A stretch of 64,000 nucleotides of DNA from Halichondria panicea (lineage: Eukaryota > Porifera > Demospongiae > Suberitida > Halichondriidae): NCBI RefSeq assembly GCF_963675165.1, contig NC_087378.1, forward strand, positions 2,210,525-2,274,524, given 5' to 3'. The notes under the pieces are model-generated. The model did no database searches. It was not told where the DNA came from and worked only from the letters and a program-made list of their open reading frames with translations. The translations under genes and the position numbers were made by a program. Of this stretch, positions 45,438 through 63,431 are shown piece by piece (the stretch's first letter is position 1; every line of letters starts with the position of its first letter).

Positions 45438-48400
45438 ATGAAGCTGTTGCAGCTTTTAACGCTGCTAGTCGGTGCTGGCACCGCTCTAGCTGCGAGCAGT
45501 AGGAGACCTATCAGGAGTCTACATACACCCAAAGGTAAAAAAATCCTTTCTCTGGAGCCGGAGCTAGATCTAGCTGCCATGCATAGTCCAGAACCAGTGA
45601 TAGACATGCACACTAAAAAACTGTGTTGGAATAGAAGACTATGCATGCCACCTCAATGAATCCTTTTCTTGCAGAAACTGTTGAGAATTACGAGGTGGTG
45701 TTTCCAGTTGTCACTTATCCTGAAGGAAAGAAAGTAAGCTGGCGGGATCTAGCCAGAGTTTTACTGTTCTGCACTGACATAATTATTGTCAGCGAGCAAA
45801 AATGAATGTAATTATTATCTTCTATTTCTACCTCACCACAGGCACAGCGCCATCCCTCTGTGATGCATGTGCACATCGAGGCACAGGATGAGAGATACAC
45901 TATCGTCTTGAAGTTGAACGAGTGAGTTTGAGATCTACTACAAGTGACGTATGACCTGATTGTACTGTGTTTTCCAACTTTACAGTATGCTCATTCCCTC
46001 CAACTTCAATTCACTTTCTTATGATAAAGATGGCAGAGAAGTTATTACAACGGTATGTCATGTAACAATGTGTGCTATTTTATTTGTCACATTTTTCAAT
46101 GAATTAAACTAATTTATTATTAATTAATCTGTACTAACCCCCTCCTCTTATAGGGTCATGTGAACTGTTTCTACCAGGGCTGGGTGGAGGGTCACCCAGA
46201 GTGGAGAGCCACAATGAGCACCTGTACAGGATTAAAGTGAGACACTAAGTATCGAATTAGTACAATTAAATTACACACTAACCCCAAAAACGGCGTCCTG
46301 ATATGGACTCACATTTTTAATAGGGAGCCTTGCACGTGTCAGGTGATACTATAGTGCAGCCATATTCGTTGGATAGTTGTGAGAATACATCCGGACTTTG
46401 CTAAGTAGTTGCCAAGTGATTTTTACCACCTTGTGCATACATTGAACATCATGAATGCCCATTTATGATGATTTCAAGTGACACTTTAGATCATTTCGTT
46501 TGTTGCACATGGCTTCTGTTTATGATCAGGTAACGTGTGTGAGTGTGTGTGTTGTACTTGCAGAGGCACTTTTGGGAATTACCAAAACAAGAAAGAGCTA
46601 TTCCATTTGGAACCACTCGACACAAATGACCCATCTGTGAGTTTCATTTTTAAGTTTGTTCTAGCTCATTTTGTTTACTTTGCCTTGTTATTGTTTGTGG
46701 CAGTTGGAGCAGCCCCATGCACTTTACCCTGACATGGAACTCGAGATTGATGAAGGGTCTTGTGGTAGGTGATCTTTTTGCAACACTGCCTCCCTCCACT
46801 CACCATAAATTACACTGTCTCCACACACACACACACATGCACACACCCTCACACATTGCACTGCATCCACACACACACACATGCACACACCCTCACACAT
46901 TGCACTGTCTCCACACACTGCATCCACACACACACACATGCACACACCCTCACACATTGCACTGCCTCCACTCCACACACCCTCCACATCGCACTGCCTC
47001 CACTCCACACGCCATCACTTTGCACTGCCTCCACTCCACACACCCTCACACATTGTACTGTCTCCACTCTACTCACACAGGCTCTAATGAGACTCACATG
47101 GTGGATGAGATCGGTGGAGTGCCCATGCCTGATATAGAAGATCTGAGAGTAAATAACAGAATAAGCTAAAGCTTGACCCTGTGCATGCATGTACCTGTCC
47201 CTGTATATACCTACGTACCTTCTTTTCTATACGTACATAGGGATAATGATAAAAAATTGTGTTGTAACTTTGCAGCTGAAGAGACAAGTCAATGGCTTTT
47301 GGATTGTCGAATTGATCATAGTCAATGACTTTAGACAGGTAAGTGCTTGTGCGTAGATATATAATAATTATTATGCGCTCTGTTTGCATTATACAGTATG
47401 GTAGCCAAGGGCAAAACCTCGCTAACACTGTCAGTAGAGCTCTGAGTATTACCAACGAAGTGGACAGTGTAAGTTGCTCTATCAAACACTTGACATTGTA
47501 CAATGCACCCCCTCTCGCACACTTGCTGTATCTTTCACGACTCTCTCCCCTCACACACAGTCACTATAAGTATTGTTATCCAAATCAAATGTGGCACACA
47601 CTAAAATACTGCAACAGGTATATCAGGCCCTAAGCATCCGTGTGGTTTTAATCCAAAGTATCACTTGGACATCAGGAGATCAAATCACTATCGTCACTGA
47701 TCCAGACGTTGTTCTGCCTTTATTCCGAACTTATGGACGGACAGTTTCAACACCTCATGACTGCATACATTTAGTCACGTAAGAAATAACGAATTACATG
47801 TACCGTATAGCTAGTAGTTTCCGGGAGGGTGGGGGGGCAAAATATTCGTGGTTTTCGTGGTTAAACACTGGAGCAGGAATATTTTATCCCCGAATGAAGC
47901 GACCTTGCCAAGCAGCAACTACGAAAATAAGATCCACAAACTGACTAAATATTGCTCAACCAGGAATATTTTGCCCCCCCGAAAATTACCCGGTATACGG
48001 TATGTTGTGGTCACAATAGCTACCTTCGTTATTTCTCTGTAGTGGTATTAATTTGGATGGGGGTACAGTGGGACTGGCATATATTGGAGTCATGTGTGGA
48101 AGCGGTTGTTCTGGCCTCTCACAAGATGGAGGAAGAGGACTAACAGGAGTCGGAACTACTGTAGCTCACGAGCTCGGTCACAATTTCTTCATGAGTCATG
48201 ATGACGGTAAGAGTTGAACTTTGAAGTAGTGATTTGAACGTGTGCATTGTTGTTTTTGTGTTTAATTCCCTTCTGTATTCTTATTATAGGCATAGCAAAC
48301 ATGCATTATTGAACGTGTTTGAGGTGTAAAAAATCACTGTACAACTACACACATTTTCTCTCTGCCTACAGGTAGTTGCACATGTACTGACTCTGTGGGC

Positions 48401-51400
48401 TACTGTATAATGGCAGCAATATCCACAACTGGCCGTGAGCCTAGCTCTTGGAGCAGCTGCTCTGTTGCCTTCCTTAACACAGGCTTCCAAACACGAAACT
48501 TAAATCGGTGTCTTGGCAACCAACCTATAACAATGGTCGGCGATCCTGTCTGTGGTAACGGTCTTCGAGAAGGCGATGAAGTATGCGATTGTGGCTCGAC
48601 TTTGGAGTGCACTGATCCTTGCTGTAATGCTGCCACGTGCCAGCTAGCATCAGGGGCCCAATGCAGTGCAGGAGGATGTTGTAACACTCAGTGCCAATTT
48701 ATTAGTGCTGGCACCACTTGCCGAACATCTACGGGTAGTTGTGATATCACCGAATATTGTAGTGGGAGCGCCAGCGAGTGTCCCAGTGATGAGAGTGTGT
48801 TGGACGGAACAGCCTGCACTAGGAATGGCGTTGGTGCCTTCTGCTATTCTGGAGAGTGTCCAAATCTAGCCCTGCAGTGTCAAGAGGCTTGGAGTAAGTC
48901 ATCGATCTCTCTATCCTATGTATAAATATGATAGCTTCAGGTCCATACATTAATTAACCCGAGGCCGTGCTGCGGCCAGCGGGTTATAGTAGTTGTCTGG
49001 TTTGTCTGTCGATCTGTCTGTCTGCATGCATGGATTGTCTGTTTGTGATTTCTGAGTCTGCTCACCTGGATGCCACAGCGCTGCGTTTACAGCATGGATA
49101 GCCTTCACACAACTAGTAATAGTGGCAGATTTTGATGTCAAAGCTTCGTTGTCGAATAAAAGCTCGTTGTTTGCCGGTTAGCTAGCTACACGCGCACGAC
49201 CTTTATTCGAGTCACTTATTATTTTGTTGTTTTCTTTGCGGACTCTGCGATCCTAGCACCAGGACTCTAGGCTTCTTCTTTACTGTGATCCTGTGATAGT
49301 TTAGTGGTGCATGATAACTTGCGCTAAACTCTCTCAAATATTTCAGCATACTGCTGTACTAGCCATGCAGCTCAGTCATACATAGTCCTACTACATGCAC
49401 TGTATTTATTGTACATGTACATCATTCCTCTGGTTTCTATAGATCTTTATTATCGTCACCAGCCGAGGGTTTGCACTTTAGTGCTCTAGTTATTATTGTC
49501 ACTCATATCCAATGATTATTGTCTTTGTTCTTATAGCTACATCATCAACCAATGGGGGATCTGCGTGCTTTAATCTGAACACTCGAGGCGATAGATTTGG
49601 CAATTGTATTGTCCATGCAACAGATCCACTCACCTATACAGCTTGTACCACTGCGTAAGTGTGTGTTGATGGCTAGTCTTCTAGCAATATGTTTTAATGT
49701 ACTGTTTTAGGTTGCAATTGATTTACTTTTTATGTTTAGCTTTGTAAGTTGAGCGAAGTGACAGGAAATCTTTCTTTTTCCTCTGTAGCAATGTTGGATG
49801 TGGTCTCTTGCATTGTATGAACACAGGCAACTTCCAGTTGAGCAATGCTAACTACCTTTTGGGCACTATTACTCCTTTTCAATCACAACCATGCAGGCGA
49901 GTTTATCAACTGCTTTGAATGTACATTATGTCATGATTTACTACAATGCCCGTTATCGCACGTTAAAACCTCGATTACATATGCAACCTTGGTAACCTAT
50001 GAAGCCAATTTGGGTCACTACATTTGAGGACATGCATACAAAAGAAGATGGGGTAGAAAGAAGATCAGGGTATGAACCTTTAAGGGCGAACATTTCCATT
50101 CTGACCGAGTATGAATATCATTCTGTATATAAACTCTTGTTGTTATTTGTAATAATTCGATTGTGACATTGCCTGATATCGTTGCAGGTCTTACTTCAGC
50201 ACAGATGCTGATGCTGTTGGTGCAGGGTTTGTATCTGACGGCATTGCATGTGGTACTGGCAATGCCTGTTTCAACAGACAGTGTGTAAATCCTTCACAAC
50301 TCACCACTCATACCTGTCCAGTGGGCTCTAACAGTCTACTCTGCTCAGGAAACGGGGTGAGCTTTAATACATGCACCTACGTACACAATAGCAGCACTGA
50401 TCCACCACAGCAGTTTATATAGAAACAGACAAGCTATAATAATTGTCCGACACTGCATTGTGATGCATTTGTACACGTTTTACATAATATAGCCAGCCGA
50501 AAAAGGACTTGATCATTGTTCTGTTTCCTTACTATAATTATAGCAATGTAACAACAATGGCGGCTGTTCTTGCTCTGCTGGTTTCTCCGGAACTACCTGT
50601 CAGACTTCAGGAGGTAGGTATCAGAATACAAAGTATATAGCTACTCAACTAACTTCAGAGCTGCTATACAGACATACATTATAACTAACACCTGTTTTAT
50701 TTTACAATTTGATTGACAGCTGTTAATCCATTTCAGTTCCAACCAATGAGTGTCTCAACAACAATGGAGGCTGCGCTCAGACATGCACAGACACAACCAG
50801 CTCTTTCGTGTGCAGCTGTGCGACAGGATACAATCTTGCCAGTAACGGACTCGGTTGCAATGGTATGTCCTCTAAATACAGCTAGCCATATGGGAGTTCT
50901 ATACATATAATTATATGGGCAGTGTACGTGTGTGTGTGTGTGGGTGGGTGTGTACTTTTATAGTTGTGCAGGATGTGACCCTGCAGCATATCACATTGTA
51001 TGTCGTCTGACCTTTGATATCATACGTTCATTTGTTTGTACTTGTGATTCTATACTCTCCACATTGTCTCAGACATCAATGAGTGTAACTCTAACAATGG
51101 CGGCTGTGCTCAAGGCTGCATCAACACAGCGGGGTCCTTTCAGTGCAGCTGTGGAACTGGGTACACACTGGCCACTAATGGAATAACATGCAATGGTGCG
51201 TTCACATTTACTCACATTTTCACATTTTTGGACAGCTTTAATATTCTGAATCCTGGGAAGAGATCAAACCCACACGCCAATTACTTATGTGTAGTAATGT
51301 ACACATGTATGGTATATGTATAGCCAACTCGACAATTGCCTCGACAAATATAGACCTGCATGGTTTATGGTTTCCGACATATCCCACGTACATGTACATG

Positions 51401-54400
51401 CAGGAACTACAACTAGCCAGCTATGTTATGTGACCCCCACACGTTTCCCTTTACTATAACCTCCCTAATATGAGCAGATATCAATGAGTGTGTGGCCAAC
51501 ACTGATGGCTGTAGCCAGTTCTGTACCAACACTGTCGGCTCCTTCACCTGTTCTTGTAGCAGTGGATATACTCTCGCCAGCAATGGCCGCACTTGCAATG
51601 GTACGTATTACATACACAATCTAGTGAAACTTGTTAGTACAATATTAGACTTATAGGCATACAGGCTTCCTTGTGCATGCATGGTCTCTTTTGATGGGGT
51701 TAACGTGTCCATGTTGACTACACTGAGACCATAGTTTACATGCATCCCAAAATGTACGGTGGGTGAGTGGGAAAGTGTAATCCTAGCCTCTTACACGGAA
51801 TTAACAAATGTAACTTGAAGTGATGTGGTGTATATACTTGTACACGATAGCTCTGTCCCCACATGAATGTTTGTATTGAGTTGTGATGCATTATAATGCT
51901 AGATAACAACGAGTGTGCTCTCAATACTGACAACTGTCAGCAAGTCTGTATCAACTCGGCCGGCACGTTCAGTTGTGCTTGTAACAATGGCTATACTCTC
52001 AACTCTAACGGGATAACATGTTCAGGTAAGCAGCACACACTATGGACCATTGAACACCTGAGCTGTTAACGCCATAGCGATGTGGTGACAGTGTCAAACA
52101 TGTAATATGAATGGTGCATTGTTATAGAGGCCATGAGAAAGATATGTATACGTATGCACAATCTGTATGCAGTATTAATATTATGGTGCTCAAGGAACGC
52201 TGTTATGGTACTATTATTAGCCTTTAGAAAACAGTACTACCGCATGTACTATAACTGACTTAATGATGTTTTTGTGCACAGATGTGAATGAGTGCAATAC
52301 TAACAATGGCGGTTGTGTGCAGACATGTACAAACACTGCTGGGTCTCGTACCTGTGGTTGCAACTCTGGATACTCACTTGCCAGCAATGGAGTCTCGTGC
52401 AATGGTACGTCAGGCTATTGTAGAAGAATAGTTAGAAGCAAAGTGCACATCATTGTATTGCGGTTATAAATTATCACGGCGTCATACACACCAAAAAATT
52501 TCACGTTTACGTTTCGCTCCGCACGTTACGAAAAACTTCATCTCTTACGGCAGCGTCTGATCAAAAGTATTTGTGTTATGTTTAACGTTTGTCATTGGTG
52601 ACTGTGCTTAATTACATATTTTGTGCACCGGAATCTCTAGACATCAACGAATGCTCGTCAAACAATGGCGGCTGTGCTCAGCGCTGTACCAACACAGTGG
52701 GATCATTCCAGTGCAGCTGTGGAACTGGATACACGCTAGCAGCAGATGGGAGAACATGTAGTAGTAAGTGTAGCTAAACAGGCTTAGAAGTTCAAATTAA
52801 TGTGACACTCTCTCAGATATAAATGAGTGCATGGCCAATAATGGGGGATGTGACCACTCTTGTACCGACACTACTGGCTCCTTCGTGTGTAGCTGTATCT
52901 CTGGGTTCAGACTGGCTACTAATGGACGAACTTGCAACGGTTTGTGGGAATACAACTTTCTTAGCTACAGAACTATCCACTTTCTCCCACACATTCAGCT
53001 ATCAACGAGTGCCAGGAGGGAACTAGCAACTGTGCCCAGCTGTGCACAGACACTGGCTCCTCATTTGTATGCTCTTGTATGAGTGGCTACGTCCTAACTA
53101 ACGGGGTCAACTGTCCCGGTAAGTTAGAGCCTCTGTGAGTGCATGAATCAGCCCAAGCTTTATGGCTCTTCTCTCTCTCCTATATAGACATTAACGAATG
53201 CTCCACAAGCAATGGAGGGTGTAATCAGATCTGCAGCAACTCTCAAGGCTCTTTCCAGTGCAGCTGTAACAGTGGCTACTCTCTAGCTGCTGATGGAATG
53301 ACTTGTGTGGATTTGAACGAGTGTCAACTCAACACTGACAACTGCCAGCAATCTTGCTCTAATATAAATGGTGGTTTCACTTGCTCCTGCATCTCTGGAT
53401 ACATACTTAATAATGACGGAAGGACATGTAGTGGTATGTTAGCTCAAAACAAAACTTGGCATTTTTAATATCTGATTGAATTCCCTACCAGATATAAACG
53501 AGTGTTTTACAAATAATGGTGGCTGCAATCAGGGCTGCACTAACACTGCTGGAGGCTTCACTTGTGAATGTCAATCGGGATACTTGCTCGCTCAGGACAG
53601 CCAAACCTGCAATGGTAGATTCTTGCATGAATACTAGTCCAGGAATTGTCAAATAACCACTAAATTCTTACAGACGTGAATGAGTGCTCGACAAACAACG
53701 GACTTTGCTCTCAGCTGTGCTCCAATAATGATGGGTCATTTGAATGCAGCTGCAATACTGGGTACACACTCAGTGTTAATGGAGCCACATGCCTGGGTAA
53801 GTGATCAAACATTAATTTTCTGAATATGATCAGATGCTGCCAGTAAAAATTCGCAACGCCAGAAAAAAACGCGCCTGAAAAATCGCCATGCATTTCTATA
53901 TTCGCTCAATCAATGGTTCATATATCATTCGCACTGTCCAGTTTTTAGCACAGATGATGTTGACTCACACACACACCAACACATGCACACTCTTTCTTTC
54001 TCAGACATCAATGAGTGTAACTCTAACAATGGCGGCTGTGCTCAGGACTGCGCCAACACATTAGGATCTTTTCAGTGCAGCTGTGAAAATGGATACACAC
54101 TGGCTGCTAATGGAAGAGCATGCAACAGTATGTTTGTAGCTATCCAACATTTTTTGTTTGGACTCAACAAGAACAATTTGTGCACTTATATAGTACTTGT
54201 CGTATATGTGCAGGTAATGTACATTTTGTTTGCTCATGCAGATATCAACGAGTGCCAGAGCAGCAATGGTGGGTGTGACCAGATCTGTACAGACAACGTT
54301 GGCACCTTTGTGTGCAGCTGTAACACTGGTTTTGAACTTGCTACCAATGGACAAACTTGCACTGGTGAGTAGCAGCTGACTTACTTAACATTAGGTGTTC

Positions 54401-57400
54401 TTCTGCATAAATTATGGACAGTCTGTTAAAGTAACAACATTGAGTGGTGTACAAGCTATATCATTTATAATAGGGGAGCCATCAATTGTGCTGTATATGT
54501 ATGCCTTTATATCAATCGTACCTTTACAGCTATTAACGAGTGTGCTGATGGCACCAACAACTGTGAACATCTCTGCATGGATACTGGATCCTCCTTTGAG
54601 TGCTCGTGCAGAAATGGCTACACCTTGAACGCTAATCAGGCAACCTGCGATGGTAAGCAATTTTACTGCATCATATATACATGCACCATGCAGCAATCTG
54701 CTTTTATTGATTCTATACTCTCATCATAATGTTCTTATTGGCCATAAAGTACTTCCAAAAACAACGCACTCTTTATTTACATTGTCTTTGTTTTTATTCA
54801 GACATTGACGAGTGTATCACAAACAATGGAGGATGCTCAGACACTTGCCGGAACTCAGCCGGGTCCTTTGACTGCGTGTGTCCCAGTGGCTTTACCCTCA
54901 ATGCCGATGGACTCTCATGCACAGGTGAGTAGGTATCTCTCTCTTTGTAGCTACTTCGATTTGGCGTGCACTTAAAATTCAGTAATTTTTCGTCAATTAT
55001 ATAGAAAGACAATGCAAAATGCGCGCAATCTACACACACAAGTGCGTGTGCTTGGGATGTTTTATATATAATTATAGCTGGCTCATAATTACCTGTAATA
55101 ATAGTCACACCATTTATGATATGTTTTTCTACAGAAATCAATGAGTGTAATTCAAACAATGGCGGCTGTGATCAGACCTGTACGAACACTGTCGGAGCCT
55201 TCCAGTGCAGCTGTAGCGCTGGGTACCAACTCGATACTGATGGTCTATCATGCGAAGGTAAGCTGATCACTTGAAATGAATATTATGCTAATTGTATCCT
55301 GTTCGGAACCGCAAAGCATGGTTGTAATAATTATGAATGGCACCATTAATTGTTCAGTAGTTTTGCTAATTTAACATATTTTGCTAAGTTTTGTAATGTA
55401 ACACATTGTACAACCCTCTTTCTTGTTTACCTAAACAGACATTGATGAGTGCTTACTGAGCAATGGAGGCTGTGACTCTGTCTGCTCTAACACGGAGGGC
55501 TCCTTCGAATGTGACTGTAACACTGGGTTCAGAATAGAAGCAGACGGAAGGACTTGTACTGGTACGTATGTGAGCATGTAGAACCAACGATCTACTAGCC
55601 TTGTTGATTGCAGAGTAATCATGCAATCTCCTGTTAGTGTAGCTAGCAGGAAATCATTACCAGCTGTATATTATATATTATTATTCACACACACTTTCTG
55701 TTCCCACATGCAGCTATCAATGAGTGTGCAGAGGGAACTAACAATTGCGAGCAGTTGTGCTCAGATACCGGTGATGCCTTTGTCTGCTCTTGTCGCAGTG
55801 GGTACACACTCAATCAGGATCAGGCCACTTGCACAGGTAATCTTTATTATATTAGTATGTCATGTGTGAATGTGTCAACTTGTTTTAAAATTAGAAGTGA
55901 CTTTATTTCAAATGACAAGATTGTATCGTAATTATGTCCCTGTGTAAATACATACAACATGTAGGTATGAATGTGTACATATACATAGCTAATTCTCAAA
56001 AATTACTGTTTTCTCATGATAATGGTAGCAAACCTGAACGTGTACAAGCGTCCACAATAATTAGTATGAAATCCCTCTAATCATTAATTTGATGTTGCAG
56101 ATATCAATGAGTGTGATGCACAAGCGGGTGGAGTGTGTGAGCAAAATTGTGATAACACTGACGGAGGGTTCGAGTGTTCCTGTAATAGCGGCAAGCAATT
56201 GGACGCCAACGGATTCACTTGCTCAAGTGAGTGTTGAAATTCATACTTCCATATTGGAACGGGTGTACGAATTGTGTAAAAATGCTATGTACTATACACA
56301 TTTTCTCCTGTAAATCATGAGTTCTTATTTCTCCTGCAGACATCACTTCAGTTGTGGATGAAAACGGTGAGCTCTCTCTGTTCCTTATGTGCATGCACAC
56401 CTCACAGGCAATCGGCATTTTTGCTTAGTCTGAGTCTGACAGCTAGTAGTACACACACATACATGTACCTCTTTATGTGTAGTAAACATACGAACTAACT
56501 CCTTCACACCTACACACACACAGTTGCTCCTATAGGTGGCATTGTCGGTGGAGTGATCGGCGCGATAATTTTCTTTGTTTTGTTAATAGTCATCGTCATC
56601 ATTGTGGTCACAGTGCTGATGAAAAAGCGAAGCGATAAGACCGAAGGTGACTACAGACCATCGAAGGCAAGCCCAAGCAAACAAAACTCCTCACAGCTGC
56701 ACAGACCTGTCCATGCTTCTCTGACTGGATCAAGTGACAATCTCTTGAACACTTCTACCAATGGTTACCACAACAGTAACATAGCCTACGTACCAGCTAT
56801 GACAACTTTCAGTAATCCTTCTCCAACCAGTCCAACCAGTCCAATCTCAAACGGCCGCTATACTAAAGGATATACCCCACCCCCCGTAACCCCTGCACCC
56901 AGTGGCCCCCCACCTAGACGAGCAGCTCCAATGGCCCCCAAGACAAACCCTGCACCTTCGGCACCCCCCAAATCCTACCTACTACCCGTCAACTCAGTGC
57001 AGTCTCCTCCACCGAAACCAGCCAAACCATTCCTGCAGTCAACACCTCCCCCAAAACCAATGAAGCCTCCGGTCCTCTCAAAGCCTCCGGTCTTCTCAAA
57101 ACCTCCAGTCCACTCAAAACCTCCAGTCCACTCAAAGCCTCCAGTTCACTCAAAGCCTCCTCCGTCTACCGGAACTCCCCTGTATCCGCCATTGAAGCCA
57201 GTAACAGGAGACATTGCAAAGCCTGCTCCTAAGCCAAAGCCAGCCCCTCCACCTAGTAGACCAGTCGCACAGGATAGAAGAGCTCCACCTCCGGCACCAG
57301 CCGTGAAACCACAGCCGAGTAACAAGCCTGTTCCAAGTGAGTAGATATACATACGTATATATACGGCCTATGCTAGGAACCTTCCCTGTCATAAGGTACA

Positions 57401-57677
57401 ATAATGCCTTTCCTACTCTATAAAACAGCGTTGCCCAATGCTATACAACGTACAACACACTTCGTCTAGTCTATGTATAGTACTATTGCCGTGTTTATCG
57501 TAATTATTTCCACACACAGCTCCCAGACCGTCTGTAGCCCCTCGAAGTAACAGCAAGCCTGTTCCTCCCCCGGCCCCCAAACCCACAGCTCCACCTGCCC
57601 CCGTGAACAGCTCAACTAAACAACCCATGGCCCCACCTGGCGGCAAAAAAGCAATGGTACCGCCCCCAAGAAGATGA
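45438..57677 (+). CDS. ADAM metalloprotease with about 20 EGF modules, membrane span and proline-rich tail
   Basis: More than 35 exons. Signal peptide [18 protein letters not shown] (45438). The prodomain lies in exons 45675-47148 ([15 protein letters not shown] is typical ADAM). A furin-type LKRQ is at 47276. In the metzincin domain, exon 48043-48206 carries [13 protein letters not shown] (third zinc His present) and exon 48372-48893 carries the Met-turn GYCIMA. The disintegrin domain has the loop [14 protein letters not shown]. The cysteine-rich domain spans exons 49537-49654, 49789-49896 and 50188-50356. An EGF is at 50544-50613. About 20 EGF modules (50737-56226), mostly DINEC...GSFxCxCxxGY, suggest calcium binding. 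The membrane span is in exon 56524 ([20 protein letters not shown] onward). The tail has many PxxP and KPPVHS repeats. Predicted to be an active surface sheddase. Vertebrate ADAMs have at most one EGF. Confidence 0.93.
46815..47080. repeat. Minisatellite in an ADAM intron
   Basis: Units of roughly 33-48 bases combine CACACACACATGCACACACC, CTCACACATTGCACTGC and CTCCACTCCACAC. About seven imperfect copies precede the exon at 47081. Confidence 0.85.
47801..48002. mobile_element. MITE, TACCGTA family, before the ADAM zinc-site exon
   Basis: TACCGTATAGCTAGTAGTTT..GGGGGGGCAAAATATTC at the left is inverted at the right by GAATATTTTGCCCCCCC...CCCGGTATACGGTA. It ends 41 bases before the exon carrying HELGHN. 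Confidence 0.8.
48958..49440. other. Repeat-like segment in an ADAM intron
   Basis: It starts CCCGAGGCCGTGCTGCGGCC with TCTGTCTG runs and GCTTCGTTGTCGAATAAAAG. These words are reminiscent of, but weaker than, the repeat family at 14330 and 63500. No coding sequence is seen. Confidence 0.35.
50737..56226 (+). repeat. Array of about 20 EGF-module exons, all phase 1-1
   Basis: Exons 50737-50862, 51073-51195, 51478-51600, 51903-52025, 52282-52404, 52641-52763, 52817-52939, 52999-53118, 53188-53433 (two modules), 53492-53614, 53674-53796, 54005-54127, 54242-54364, 54530-54652, 54802-54924, 55135-55257, 55439-55561, 55714-55836, 56101-56226. Nearly all are exactly 123 bases. Each begins and ends in phase 1, so any number could be gained or lost without a frameshift. 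Confidence 0.93.
57056..57163 (+). repeat. 18-base coding repeat in ADAM tail (KPPVHS)
   Basis: Six to seven 18-base units encode [12 protein letters not shown] and KPPVHS in the cytoplasmic tail. The repeated PxxP-like motifs could bind SH3 domains. Confidence 0.85.
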
Positions 57678-57854
57678 ACTGAATATCACAACAATTATTA
57701 CCCTCCCTAAATTAGCGTGTTGCTCTGTTTTTAAATCCAATGCATGTGTAGACGTGAAAGTTATAGCACAAATACATTCACTATTAATTATTCTTTTAAA
57801 TCACTGAAAATAGACAAACAATTTTGCAAAATTAAATGATGAATGAAAAGAATA
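57678..57854. other. Convergent 3' gap, ADAM to BCS1L
   Basis: 177 AT-rich bases hold both 3' UTRs. No separate element is seen. Confidence 0.6.
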
Positions 57855-59994
57855 CTAAAGCGTCCATATTTGGTTGACATTGTTCAGCGAGTCTTCTGGG
57901 TCATTCTTGTAGAACATAAAGTAGCCTTGTAGCTGAGCCATGCTGACGGGTTTGTTCATACAAGTCACTTGCTCTGCAAACAGCTGGGCTCTAGCAATAG
58001 GCTGCTCTGGGTAGAATCGAAGGTACATCTGCTCCAGTTGGTACGGAGATGCATAATCAATAGCAACCTTCATGTCCACTCGTCCCGGTCTAATTAAAGC
58101 AGGGTCCAACCTAAACCAATAAATCAACATTAATTATACAGCATACATTGAAAGAGCATAATTATATAAATTATAGTCAATGTGATTGGATGCACACAAT
58201 AATTATGTAATTACGTATACCCTGTGCGTGCGCAGCAGGGGTAGAGTGATTGGTGTGTGTGTGTGTGTGGACACAAAAATGAGCTGTTTGAGCGAACTAG
58301 ACACCTTCATGGACTGCTTCAACTGCTAATGAGACAGTAGGATAGACTAGCTATAGTTTAAACTTGTAGGTGATCTTCGAAGGCGACTGTTTTCTAATCA
58401 ATCTCGCTTTATAAAGTCACGATCATTCCCCATTTACAATCCCAGAAGGTCATTACGATAAAAAGTTTTGTATCCGTTTTGCCGCTCTGCGCGTGCAATG
58501 AAGCTCAATGCACGGGGTGGAGCATCTTGTTACAGTGATGCATAGTGAACCCACCTGTCTAAGTAGTTGGTGGTCATGAACACGACCCTCCCCTCAGTTG
58601 ACGCCACTCCATCCAAAGTGTTCAACAGCCCACTGAATGTGACTCTACTCAACCCTTCGTATGCCGTTTTAGCCTTTGCACTCTCCTCACGGCTCACAAA
58701 TGCAGCATCCACATCTTCTAAAAGTACAAGACTTCGCTGAGGGGCTAGACTGAGCAGGTGGTTGAGACGATCGTCAGACAATCCTCGATCACTCAGGTTG
58801 AGTACACAGATGCTGTAGTCCAGCTCACCAGCCAGTGCTGTACTATTGTGTGTGCGTGTTGGAGGGGAGGGGGGGGGGGGGGGCAATATTTTGTGGGATG
58901 TATTTGTGAATGCATAAAAAGAACAAAGTCATTCACAATCAGAACAAGTTCTAGCACATCTCGCCTCTAGGGCATTGAGTGGTCATTACATGAAACTACT
59001 CTTTCCACAGCCTGGCGGACCATAGAGAAGGTAACCACGACGATAGGGAATGCCTGAAAAGCAACAGCAAAGTATTTATTTCCAATAATTGTTGTTCCAA
59101 CGTAAGCAGCACTCACCTCTCTCCATGTACCACTGCGGTGTACTGACGAAGCCCTTGATGTCATCCACAATAGCCTCTGTGATGCCCTGGTTCAGTATCA
59201 CTGAGTTGATGGCCCGGTGTTTCCGTGGGTAACCAAACTGGCGCCACTCGGCCCCGACAGGAGTATACATGATCGTTTTGCCCTCCATCTCCTCCAGAGC
59301 CATTTTCCTGGCTTAATACACATGTGCATACCAGACACAAACCAAGTAAACAAGGGGACTAAAACAGTACTTTTTACAAATGCAGAGTTTTATAAACAAG
59401 CTCCACATACCTAACTAGAAACCTGATAAAAGGGGGCACATAATTATATACACTTGACATTGACATAGTGTATTAGGTTATGTCATCAGTTAGATCTACC
59501 AATAGTGACTAGACTAGATAAAGAATAGACATACCTTCTTCCAAAATTCCGAAGTACACCCCTTTGTCTCTACCAAGGGCTGTAAGTGTCACTGTTTCAA
59601 ATGGAGTCCCATTTTGAAGATTCACCATTTGTTTCTCCCTGTTTCGTTCGACTCGTATCCATGTCCGTTTGTACCAGAATATATGAACCCCTGGACTCGG
59701 AATAAAATCAAATTTAGTCCTAATGCTTCCGTTTTCCAATTGTTGGAAGGTCGTCTGAGCACTCAAGTGTTGGGTATGGCTGGCATTCTCTGTTATCCAC
59801 TGAAGAAGCCATTGGTAGCTCTTGTCTCTACTGGGGACTTCTAGTGTGATCATACAGTGCCTTCTGAACATAATCATGCCAAGCTGACTGCCCTTCCTCA
59901 GAAAAGCAAGCCCAGCTCCAACTCCAACCAGTCCAAACCCTGCACCAAAGTATGGATTATTCTGCAAAGCTCCTACAAACTCTGCTAGCCCCAT
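57855..59994 (-). CDS. BCS1L: Mitochondrial AAA ATPase BCS1, complex III assembly factor
   Basis: Five exons, minus strand: 59994-59535, 59311-59117, 59053-58990, 58842-58555, 58110-57855. They sum to 1263 bases (420 residues; human 419). The N-terminal membrane segment [20 protein letters not shown] with flanking basic residues acts as the internal mitochondrial signal. The BCS1-specific domain follows ([20 protein letters not shown]). The AAA domain has Walker A GPPGCGKS (split by an intron just after it), Walker [45 protein letters not shown] with the arginine finger, and the C-terminal [11 protein letters not shown]. It translocates the folded Rieske iron-sulfur protein into complex III at the inner membrane. 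It sits between two ADAM genes. A poly-C run precedes the acceptor at 58842. Confidence 0.97.
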
Positions 59995-60177
59995 AGTGAA
60001 GTGATTTAATAATTTAATAATTAGTAGTCAATGATTAAGGACGCCCTTGAGTTTACTTTGGCCATGTGGTCTTTGATGACTGCGCATGTGCAATAGCAAA
60101 CATCACACAGAATCTATGTATAAATTCTTGGCCTTTCTGTTCTACCATTAGGTTGCCATGGATTACATATAGACTAT
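59995..60177. other. Upstream region of BCS1L
   Basis: AT-rich; it has an ACGCCCTTG word at 60041. No promoter motif is recognised. Confidence 0.4.
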
Positions 60178-60813: not shown

Positions 60814-63431
60814 TCAAGGCTTGGGAGGAACAAGAGGCCTCCTTGTAGCAGGCACTCCGGGCCTCGGTGCAGGCTTAATTGGTGGCTGGTGGTTGGCATT
60901 ATCTAGGGGTTTTTAAAAATATGTTTGTTATCAAGAGCATATGCATAGGGGTGCATGGTTTGGTTTAATGCATTACACACTAAAAGCTTACAGGGCGGAG
61001 GTGGGTCTTCTCTTGAGGCAGGTATTGGTCTAGACGGTGGTTTAGCCGTGGGTGGAGGAGGTTTGAAAGCTGGTCCTCTGGGTTGTGCCGTCCGTGAGGG
61101 TGGTGGGCGTGAGGGTGCTGGACGTGTGGAGGGAGTAGTGGGAGGACGTGAGGGTGGGGGAGGTCTTGTTGCCGCTGGAGAGGGAGTTAGCTTATTGGAC
61201 CGTACCACACTAACTGATGTGACAGGTTTAGTAGTGGTGTGACCGTTTACTGATCGGCCTCTGTGTGATGGGGTGTACTTTCCGTCCTTGTAAAACTTTA
61301 TCAGCACTACTGTGACAACCACTGCCCCAACGATCAGAGCAAGCACAAGGAGGGTTCCAATGATACCCCCAGCTATCGCCCCACCTGTAAAGGAGAGAAT
61401 ATAGCAGTGGATCAGCAGGAGTCCTTCAACATGATTGTGATATAGTAAAAACCATAGAGTGTACAAGAGTACATGTAAGTCTAAGCGGAATCTGTCATTG
61501 CTAACTCTTAGTTCTGAGTTTGAAATGGACAGGCATAGGCCACTGTAGTATATTCTGACATACATGTAGAGTGGACACATTAACACACACACACACACAC
61601 CTGACGCTGATGCTCCTCCGCCAGGCACATCGATAAACTCACTGCAGACAGACCCACCAGAGCCAACATTGCATGAACACATATTGTCAGTGTTGCATAC
61701 CTAAAAAGAGAAGAAATTCGTATGTCATGCACGTATTAGAGACACATTATTATTTTTATCAACGCAATTGACAAGTTCACGAGTACATTATCTTACTCTA
61801 CCCACACACACTGTCATGTGATTCCCCTTGACGTACCCCGTTTCCAGAGCAGGAGAGTCCATTGCTTCCTACCGAACAAGGAGGGATGTTCAGGCTGGTC
61901 AAGGGCACACACTGTCGTTGGAAGCACACCTGCAAACAGCAAAATACATATATACTTACACAAGTATCACAACTACGAACAATACATGAATCCAAAGTGC
62001 ACTATTAAAGTGTCCATGCATGCATACAGTATGATTGATTGCCAAGCTGAAGGCTTACCATTTCGTCTCCACACTTTGTGCCTTCATCAACCAGTCCGGG
62101 ATTTACAGCATCTGATGATGTCGGGGTAACTGAGCCACGACACTGGTGAGACACTCGATTGTCATCTCTGTTTGAAACTGTGATGACGGTGGTGAAGATG
62201 TTGTTCGGGTTGGTAAATTCCCCAAATTCACAGTAGAGGAGACCACACATCTCGTCTCCTGATGCACATGAGAGATATTGGTTTTGGGAGGGATCGTGGC
62301 CACAGTTGCCAAATTGATTACCAGCCAGGTTCCTTGAGTAGCACTGGTCTATACCTTTATTGGTGTCTGCAGGGAGGAGAAATTACAAAAATGTATGTAA
62401 GTACATGTATGTAGTCTGAAAATACAGTTTAGATACACATACCGTAAAACGTCTAATTAAGGCGCCACTCTAATCTTAGCGCCAACTTTAAACAGTCTAA
62501 TTTTTCTTTGTTCTAATTGGGGGCCAAATGAAGCCATCAAAGCTATTTATCAACGTGGCCGTCACTTTAAATAAGGCTAAAGTATTTTTCTCTGTTCTAT
62601 TTGTGCGCCATAAAACCTTAATTAGAATTTTTACCGTACTTAAGTATATGTTGCATGGTATAGTACATGCAGCATAATGGATGCAGTAGGTTACCATAAT
62701 TCTTTAACTCACTGAAGTCGATCTGACACTGAGAATCATACGAGAGACAAGTACCAGAGAAGCAATACGAGTCGTTGTTGTTGCAAAGCTGTCCGTCCTG
62801 AACTCTGAAATCCTCGGGACAGTCCGAGGAGTCACCAGAGCAATACTCCGTGATGTCACACTCCTGGGTGGACTCACGACAAGTGGTGCCATAGAGACGG
62901 AGCTGACAGCTGTCACAACAAGAGCCGGAGAAACACTCAGCCCCATCTATCAGCTGACAGGAGGTGGCATTGCAGCAGGGATCAGTGCAGATCTACAGAT
63001 ATATGTGTACATACGGGAGGAGAGTTGGCTCAGTCACAATTTACATTGTACATGTAGTGTACTCAAACAACTCAAACATTACTGACACAAGTACAGTCAC
63101 AAGACAATGGGAAATTCGCATGCAGTGTGCTGCATGTAGTCACACTTTAATCATAATTTATACTCTAGCCCAATAGTTCGGCACCAATTAGTTCAGCTCA
63201 CCTCTGGAGTGCCACAGTCGCAGACCTCCCCTGTCTCTCTGAGTCCGTTCCCACACACTCCCTCTCCCAAAATAGCCGCTGGCTCGTTGAACAGACAAGA
63301 GTTGAGACCGTATATTGTGAAGCCTGCATCGAGGTCTTCTTGTGAGCAGGTGGACCAGCGAGTGGATGGAATAGACCCTGACACGGAAGCCATGATACAG
63401 TTCCCTGTCGGGTCATTACACGTGCATGCTC
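60814..63431 (-). CDS. Second ADAM metalloprotease, C-terminal part (5' end beyond the window)
   Basis: Visible exons, minus strand: 63431-63202, 62992-62713, 62366-62059, 61929-61837, 61700-61601, 61384-60992, 60902-60814. The first holds the Met-turn region (ACTCNDPTGNCIMASVSG in part: NCIMA), so the HExxH exon should lie left of it on the gene, beyond or near 64000. The disintegrin domain follows (CGNGLRETGEVCDCG, loop CRESTQECDITEYC), then the cysteine-rich domain (NQFGNCGHD, CGLLYCEF). Only a short EGF-like remnant (VCNTDNMCSCNVGSGG) precedes the membrane span (GGAIAGGIIGTLLVLALIV). The tail is rich in PPPP, RPPPSR and KPPPP. It is a paralogue of the 45438-57677 ADAM but lacks the EGF array. 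It lies tail-to-tail with that gene, with BCS1L between them. Confidence 0.92.
62440..62638. mobile_element. Inverted-repeat element in the second ADAM intron
   Basis: TACCGTAAAACGTCTAATTA (then AGGCGCC) at the left is inverted by ...CCTTAATTAGAATTTTTACC at the right. Internal GGCGC words pair too. The ends resemble the TACCGTA family, but the interior differs. Confidence 0.75.

Follow-up and report, generated by a model that had tools for sequence, protein, structure and literature searches.

The window analyzed here is a stretch of 64,000 nucleotides of Halichondria panicea DNA (C2:2210525-2274524 in the genome searched, 131 Mb in 39 contigs). It carries on its plus strand a gene model in which an ADAM (M12B) head is followed by a chain of EGF modules of the calcium-binding class (cbEGF), a membrane span and a proline-rich tail. 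The 39 exons translate into 1831 residues with no internal stop and one terminal stop, the 5496 coding bases being spread over 12,240 bases. The introns are 53 to 643 bases long (median 157). GT-AG borders were found in 37 of the 38 and GC-AG in one (after exon 15), with AG at the 3' end of all. An earlier reading of the same DNA (the original prediction) had named positions 45438, 57677, 48372, 50356, 51073 and 56524, all of which agree with the gene model. The features of the gene are as follows.

45438-57677, plus strand: ADAM and EGF-chain gene, a 39-exon splice model built from sequence reading and open reading frames (ORFs)
45438-45534, plus strand: exon 1, start codon and signal peptide (ORF and splice model; hydropathy window at residue 3)
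45675-47338, plus strand: exons 2-9, propeptide and start of the catalytic domain (Pep_M12B_propep; RLKR at residues 196-199)
47276-48893, plus strand: exons 9-13, reprolysin catalytic domain (residues 207-401), then disintegrin (PF01421; aligns with solved structures)
48167-48205, plus strand: zinc site, with Phe for the consensus Gly at motif position 8 (sequence; compared with a paralogue on contig C6 and with gene L014)
48404-48412, plus strand: Met-turn CIM (sequence)
48569-48790, plus strand: disintegrin domain (residues 416-489; loop end SCD; PF00200, base coordinates from the gene model)
48803-50356, plus strand: ADAM cysteine-rich domain (residues 494-602), exons 13-16, exon 15 having the sole GC donor (PF08516)
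50544-50613, plus strand: exon 17, the ADAM's own EGF module, ending in phase 1 (EGF_2 below threshold; aligned exons in both paralogues)
50614-50736, plus strand: junction intron of 123 bp between the ADAM part and the EGF chain (sequence; splice and signal-start scans)
50737-50862, plus strand: first chain exon (gene model)
50737-56226, plus strand: 19 phase 1-1 exons with 20 tandem cbEGF-class modules (gene model, Pfam, cysteine count, phases)
56340-56366, plus strand: 27-bp phase 1-1 spacer exon between the chain and the membrane exon (gene model)
56524-57336, plus strand: membrane-span exon (span at about 56535-56627) with most of the proline-rich tail (hydropathy; composition and motifs)
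57520-57677, plus strand: last exon, tail end and TGA stop (gene model)

A Pfam search of residues 1-678 identified the reprolysin domain PF01421 (E 1.6e-36, 126.7 bits against a cut-off of 20.8), the disintegrin domain PF00200 (E 5.4e-20, 72.4 bits against 35.1), the ADAM_CR domain PF08516 (E 2e-18, 67.3 bits against 29.4) and the propeptide PF01562, Pep_M12B_propep (E 1e-6, 29.7 bits against 23.7). EGF_2, which corresponds to the ADAM's own EGF in exon 17, scored 21.3 bits, just under its cut-off of 22.1. The propeptide is closed by the furin-like RLKR, and a Cys-Gly in its region (GSCG) is a candidate cysteine switch. Everything that defines an ADAM (M12B) was found: catalytic, disintegrin and cysteine-rich domains, propeptide with furin site, EGF, one span and a tail. 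Against solved structures (E <= 0.001, distinct sequences; best 60 of 83), the head matched best to snake venom metalloproteases with disintegrin and cysteine-rich domains, and then to ADAM22. The layout had been called a complete ADAM; this holds for the prodomain, reprolysin domain, CIM Met-turn, disintegrin and cysteine-rich domain, and it needs a qualification at the zinc site, where the Gly is replaced and activity is not assured.

In the zinc motif HExxHxxGxxHD the Gly at position 8 is changed to Phe and the remaining consensus positions are all kept. The C6 paralogue has Asn at the same position, and L014, a Reprolysin_2-type gene of the same genome which we take to be ADAM17-like, keeps the Gly (HELGHNWGAHHD). 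We lean slightly, at a little above an even chance, toward a zinc-bound and probably working protease because the metal ligands, the catalytic Glu, the Met-turn, RLKR and the propeptide Cys-Gly are all kept. Weighing against this, the Gly-to-Phe change departs from the consensus HExGHxxGxxHD, which is used to predict active ADAMs and includes this Gly (PMC4848645). The same single protein could instead display a dead protease as an adhesion ligand, like ADAM22, with the disintegrin and cysteine-rich domains binding partners at the rod's tip while the tail signals or anchors; we see this as a real possibility, well short of even. ADAM22 is inactive and is among the best-scoring solved relatives of the head (best 60 of 83), and the C6 paralogue has likewise lost the Gly that L014 keeps. 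Dead ADAMs often lose the His, Glu, Asp, Met-turn, RLKR or Cys-Gly, and here the three His, Glu, Asp and the other three features are kept, which speaks against a dead head. Astacins are of the same clan, and their chain has a sharp turn following this Gly (PMC9848320), a position here taken by Phe. In venom homologues that combine Gly-to-Cys with Glu-to-Asp, and in others whose third His is altered, no activity on azocasein or gelatin was detectable (PMC5086652), which again favors a dead head, but neither inactive pattern has the Gly change alone.

The 822 residues after the head gave Pfam matches to FXa_inhibition (9.6e-175, 19 stretches), cEGF (9.6e-164, 19 stretches) and EGF_CA (2.8e-125, 18 stretches). 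About 20 calcium-binding-type modules had been noted; the cysteine count is 20 in addition to the ADAM's own EGF, and Pfam places them in the cbEGF class. Each of the 20 has six cysteines and a one-residue linker, and 18 share the cysteine spacing 6-3-8-1-12. The packing aromatic (Tyr or Phe four residues past the fifth cysteine) is present in 19/20 and the Asp/Asn hydroxylation consensus also in 19/20. The strict calcium consensus [DN]x[DN][EQ]C was found in 15/20. Beginning with the first chain exon and ending with the membrane exon, 21 of 21 exons are phase 1-1. The ratio of nonsynonymous to synonymous substitution (dN/dS) was estimated roughly by NG86 over 41 codons in the 18 modules of 41 residues, modules 8 and 20 being left out for their length. 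It was below 1 in all 56 module pairs with 0 < dS < 3 (median 0.23); the other 97 of the 153 pairs compared were saturated or not computable. The modules have thus been kept as protein. Modules 2 and 13 share 86% DNA identity. One exon, 53188-53433, contains two EGF modules while every other chain exon contains one; its intron was lost or never gained.

Hydropathy analysis of the whole model detected windows at residue 3 (signal peptide) and in one run starting at 1507-1528. The single membrane span and SH3-ligand-like tail named earlier are both present. The tail, counted from MKK, has 291 residues with 28.5% proline and SH3-ligand-like motifs of two types (three [RK]xxPxxP and three PxxPx[RK]). 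In ADAMs the SH3-binding potential correlates with catalytic activity (PMC4380453). Pfam gave no family above its cut-off over span and tail, and a genome search with this part returned weak matches only (41 at E <= 1; best after self, E 7.5e-5).

Only 123 bp lie between the EGF exon that belongs to the ADAM and the exon that opens the chain. No ATG, AATAAA or ATTAAA is present in this intron, 50614-50736, nor did a loose scan find any signal-peptide-like start in it. The original prediction was to fall if a promoter and a stop lay between 50356 and 51073, and for these there is little room. In a matrix built from the gene's own introns, the junction donor scores 7.4 and the acceptor 5.7 (gene medians 8.2 and 8.1), the donor being near the median and the acceptor below it. 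Taken separately, the ADAM part would lack a membrane span and the chain a signal peptide, which favors one gene. We conclude that ADAM, chain, span and tail very probably form a single coding unit. The claim of one gene for the ADAM, some 20 EGF modules, span and tail is upheld by the sequence; that one transcript covers ADAM and chain is what we infer from it.

Several points weigh against so simple a product. The junction acceptor is weaker than the median for this gene, and there is a rival acceptor at 50720 (score 2.8) whose use would abandon the EGF frame. Four transmembrane-like open stretches are located in introns (50895, 52163, 54175 and 55315). The scan for signal-like starts, whose criteria are loose and pass a positive control, gave six candidates over 48894-50736 against 1.67 expected in shuffles (these move 2-base blocks and are an approximate control). 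Five of the six are out of frame inside exons 14-17, and one of these readings, within exon 17, is also the only candidate over 50357-51072 (0.45 expected). The sixth lies in intron 13 at 49512-49654, shares the frame of exon 14 and is a candidate alternative first exon. Starting there, a form with the cysteine-rich domain and the chain and without the protease is possible. Of all that speaks against one simple product this weighs most, yet it does not split ADAM from chain at the EGF junction.

Several forms, such as a short secreted ADAM or a protease-less chain form, could arise beside the long membrane form through a different start, splice site or polyadenylation site. We regard this as unlikely. 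Read-through beyond 50613 would reach a stop at 50684, use of the acceptor at 50720 would exit the EGF frame, and a product begun at 49512 would carry a signal-like peptide ahead of the cysteine-rich domain and chain; however, acceptor 50720 is weaker than the one used, and AATAAA and ATTAAA are both absent from 49156 to 57830. The only AATAAA within the gene is at 49155, upstream of exons 14-16 that complete the cysteine-rich domain; none follows in 49156-58000, where the sole ATTAAA is at 57831. That an ADAM gene and an adjoining gene for an EGF-chain receptor were misread as one is very improbable: the AATAAA at 49155 and the excess of signal-like starts (six against 1.67) can be cited for it, but the two parts lie 123 bp apart with no such start in between, an end at 49155 would remove exons 14-16 from the ADAM's cysteine-rich domain, a start at 49512 would hand that domain to the chain gene, neither position divides the gene between ADAM and chain, and a split would deprive the ADAM of a span and the chain of a signal peptide.

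The sequence contains an ADAM core, a continuous spliced frame, 20 regular modules, one span, a proline-rich tail and, nearby, a paralogue without the chain. We consider it fairly probable that the product is a type I membrane ADAM whose gene carries, between the ADAM's own EGF exon and the membrane exon, a cassette of phase-1 cbEGF exons that gives the head a long reach. A furin-type cut at RLKR would remove the propeptide. With EGF modules of 2.7-3 nm, calcium would stiffen the 20 modules into a rod of about 50-60 nm, with possible hinges at the five modules without the strict calcium motif. The rod would lift the metalloprotease-disintegrin head off its own membrane and direct it to partners on neighboring cells or in the matrix and not to its own juxtamembrane sites. 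Whether the head cuts or only binds, either would be within this proposal. The tail may recruit SH3 proteins as in active ADAMs. Its SH3-ligand-like character would fit an ADAM with a sorting or signaling role (PMC4380453).

Where EGF modules bind calcium and the module before supplies a packing aromatic, the array is rod-like (PMC4826273). Such arrays are characterized by calcium-binding EGF modules in tandem, joined by short linkers of fixed length; here the one-residue linker occurs in 20/20 and the strict calcium motif in 15/20, calcium binding itself being predicted. Two facts weigh against a straight rod: modules 1, 8, 15, 17 and 19 have no strict calcium consensus, and in Notch1 the non-calcium EGF modules form bent or flexible joints that cannot be predicted from the sequence (PMC4826273). 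The regular one-residue linkers, the calcium motifs and the packing aromatics make it reasonable to infer a rigid stalk that keeps the head at a distance. The suggestion that the stalk could hold the protease far from the membrane stands to that extent, the shape being a predicted one. ADAMs are generally pictured as cutting substrates near a shared membrane. An ADAM on a stalk of tens of nm would make it possible to test whether the choice of substrates depends on distance from the membrane and whether trans cleavage or matrix targeting arises by added spacers, and it would exemplify phase-1 exon shuffling that alters the geometry of a protease with its core intact.

ADAMs are described as having one EGF-like repeat (PMC4848645). 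The gene in the window shares with ADAM (M12B) proteins and snake venom metalloproteases the order propeptide, reprolysin, disintegrin, cysteine-rich and EGF, and with the ADAM family the one span and SH3-ligand-like tail; it differs in the 20 cbEGF-class modules between EGF and membrane and in the Phe at the zinc-site Gly. The best solved relatives of modules 13-15 are LRP2, LRP4, ADGRE5, thrombomodulin and LDLR, with Notch1 (best 1.5e-10) and fibrillin-1 (8.2e-8) ranked lower (best 60 of 134 distinct matches). The EGF pairs of the LDL receptor, LRP2 and LRP4, and more distantly of fibrillin-1, have the same cEGF-type modules and one-residue linkers, whereas the present chain is joined to a protease. 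Over head and chain Pfam gave no propeller, LDLR class A or TB family.

Like Notch, the protein has a long EGF chain anchored in the membrane, and Notch1 EGF structures match it up to 1.5e-10. Unlike Notch, whose EGF modules have a C5-C6 spacing of 8, the chain has a spacing of 11-12, and neither the O-fucose nor the O-glucose consensus occurs in any of its 20 modules (0/20 each). It scores 530.9 bits with Pfam cEGF and 33.5 with hEGF; in this and in its lack of O-glycan sites it differs from what is known of Notch modules. LNR and ankyrin families were not found by Pfam in head and chain or in span and tail. A Notch-like chain is not favored given the glycosylation motifs, spacing and Pfam class, although Notch1 structures match. 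The fibrillin- or Notch-like rods invoked earlier are a loose comparison, since LRP/LDLR-type modules are closest and Notch1 and fibrillin-1 rank lower.

Among the papers listed by searches of an open-access library on ADAM with EGF, sponges or early animals, or ADAM evolution, no title or abstract beginning described an ADAM with a long EGF chain. In the main text of PMC12549020, for which the listing counted 27 hits at word beginnings, the whole words ADAM and disintegrin occur at 0 places. The statement that no family with this layout has been described agrees with the open-access papers listed; unnamed predicted relatives may well exist in protein databases. A search outside this genome with a 174-residue Met-turn and disintegrin stretch yielded 13 pattern matches on prokaryote contigs and one on viral contigs, none confirmed, a result that says nothing on animals.

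Two further ADAM genes bear on the origin of the chain.

60814-63431, minus strand: neighboring ADAM paralogue, 3' part in seven exons (Met-turn, disintegrin, cysteine-rich, EGF, membrane exon, proline-rich tail)
61700-61601, minus strand: EGF exon of the neighbor, followed directly by its membrane exon 61384-60992
L008 9494-542, minus strand, with prodomain exons on L009 below about 2462: third ADAM gene, on C6 (EGF exon, five Sushi-type exons, membrane exon)

The core of the neighbor shows 46% identity to the window gene (154/334, over the part read). Its zinc-site exon was not found in the sequence read, and its upstream catalytic exons presumably lie just past the end of the window. The EGF exon ends in phase 1 and joins a phase-1 membrane exon with no chain in between; the chain of the window gene therefore fills a slot that is open to phase-1 exons without a break of frame. 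Span and tail have no real similarity to those of the neighbor (the only match has E 9.4), and for this reason the chain may have arrived from another gene along with the span and the tail, which weighs against a simple insertion. Insertion of modules and fusion with a whole EGF receptor would each account for the gene, and the sequence decides neither. A genome search with modules 2-5 gave at least 217 matches (150 of 638 candidates scored). Among the matches listed, the highest identities outside the query, 79% and 75%, belong to single modules of the same chain, with 66% or less elsewhere; in order of E-value, stretches of several modules on C5, C3 and C4 are interspersed with the chain's own. 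These identities fit a chain grown by local amplification. EGF stretches similar to the chain were seen at C11:2000352-2066138 and C2:6951126-7011170 and on C4, C1 and C3, some of them clustered over tens of kb. The genome has many such long and similar EGF arrays, and the first module could have come from any one of them.

The C6 ADAM core is 45% identical to that of the window gene (222/494) and 84% identical to that of the neighbor (281/335). Like the window gene, it has an EGF exon ending in phase 1; it differs in having five Sushi exons and another membrane exon in place of the cbEGF chain, the fusion there being putative. The frame from the phase-1 EGF exon can run through the five Sushi-type exons to the membrane exon, and the Sushi assignment has a Pfam E of 4.5e-25 in three stretches (three of the five exons scanned). 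The joining intron is 2.3 kb long and contains an open frame with a QRICH1-type domain; no signal-like start was detected in it (0.72 expected). An ADAM-Sushi receptor on C6 is possible and is only a lead. Tentatively, and at less than an even chance, the same genome would mount one kind of ADAM core on different stalks at the same phase-1 position: none, 20 cbEGF modules or five Sushi modules. If so, ADAM reach would be set by interchangeable stalk cassettes, and proteases or adhesion heads would act across the cell-cell gap and not on their own membrane.

Two pairs of Sushi exons on L008 (minus strand, 2678-2152 and 1855-1329, about 823 bases apart) have near-identical translations, introns included, which suggests a recent tandem duplication. 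A prodomain exon of the window gene (46154-46236) is 96% identical in protein (27/28) to L009 minus strand 683-600, compared with 45% over the shared core, possibly as a result of gene conversion. Between the two ADAM genes of the window, at 59509-60027 on the minus strand, lies the N-terminal part of a BCS1-type protein (BCS1_N, E 7.5e-31).

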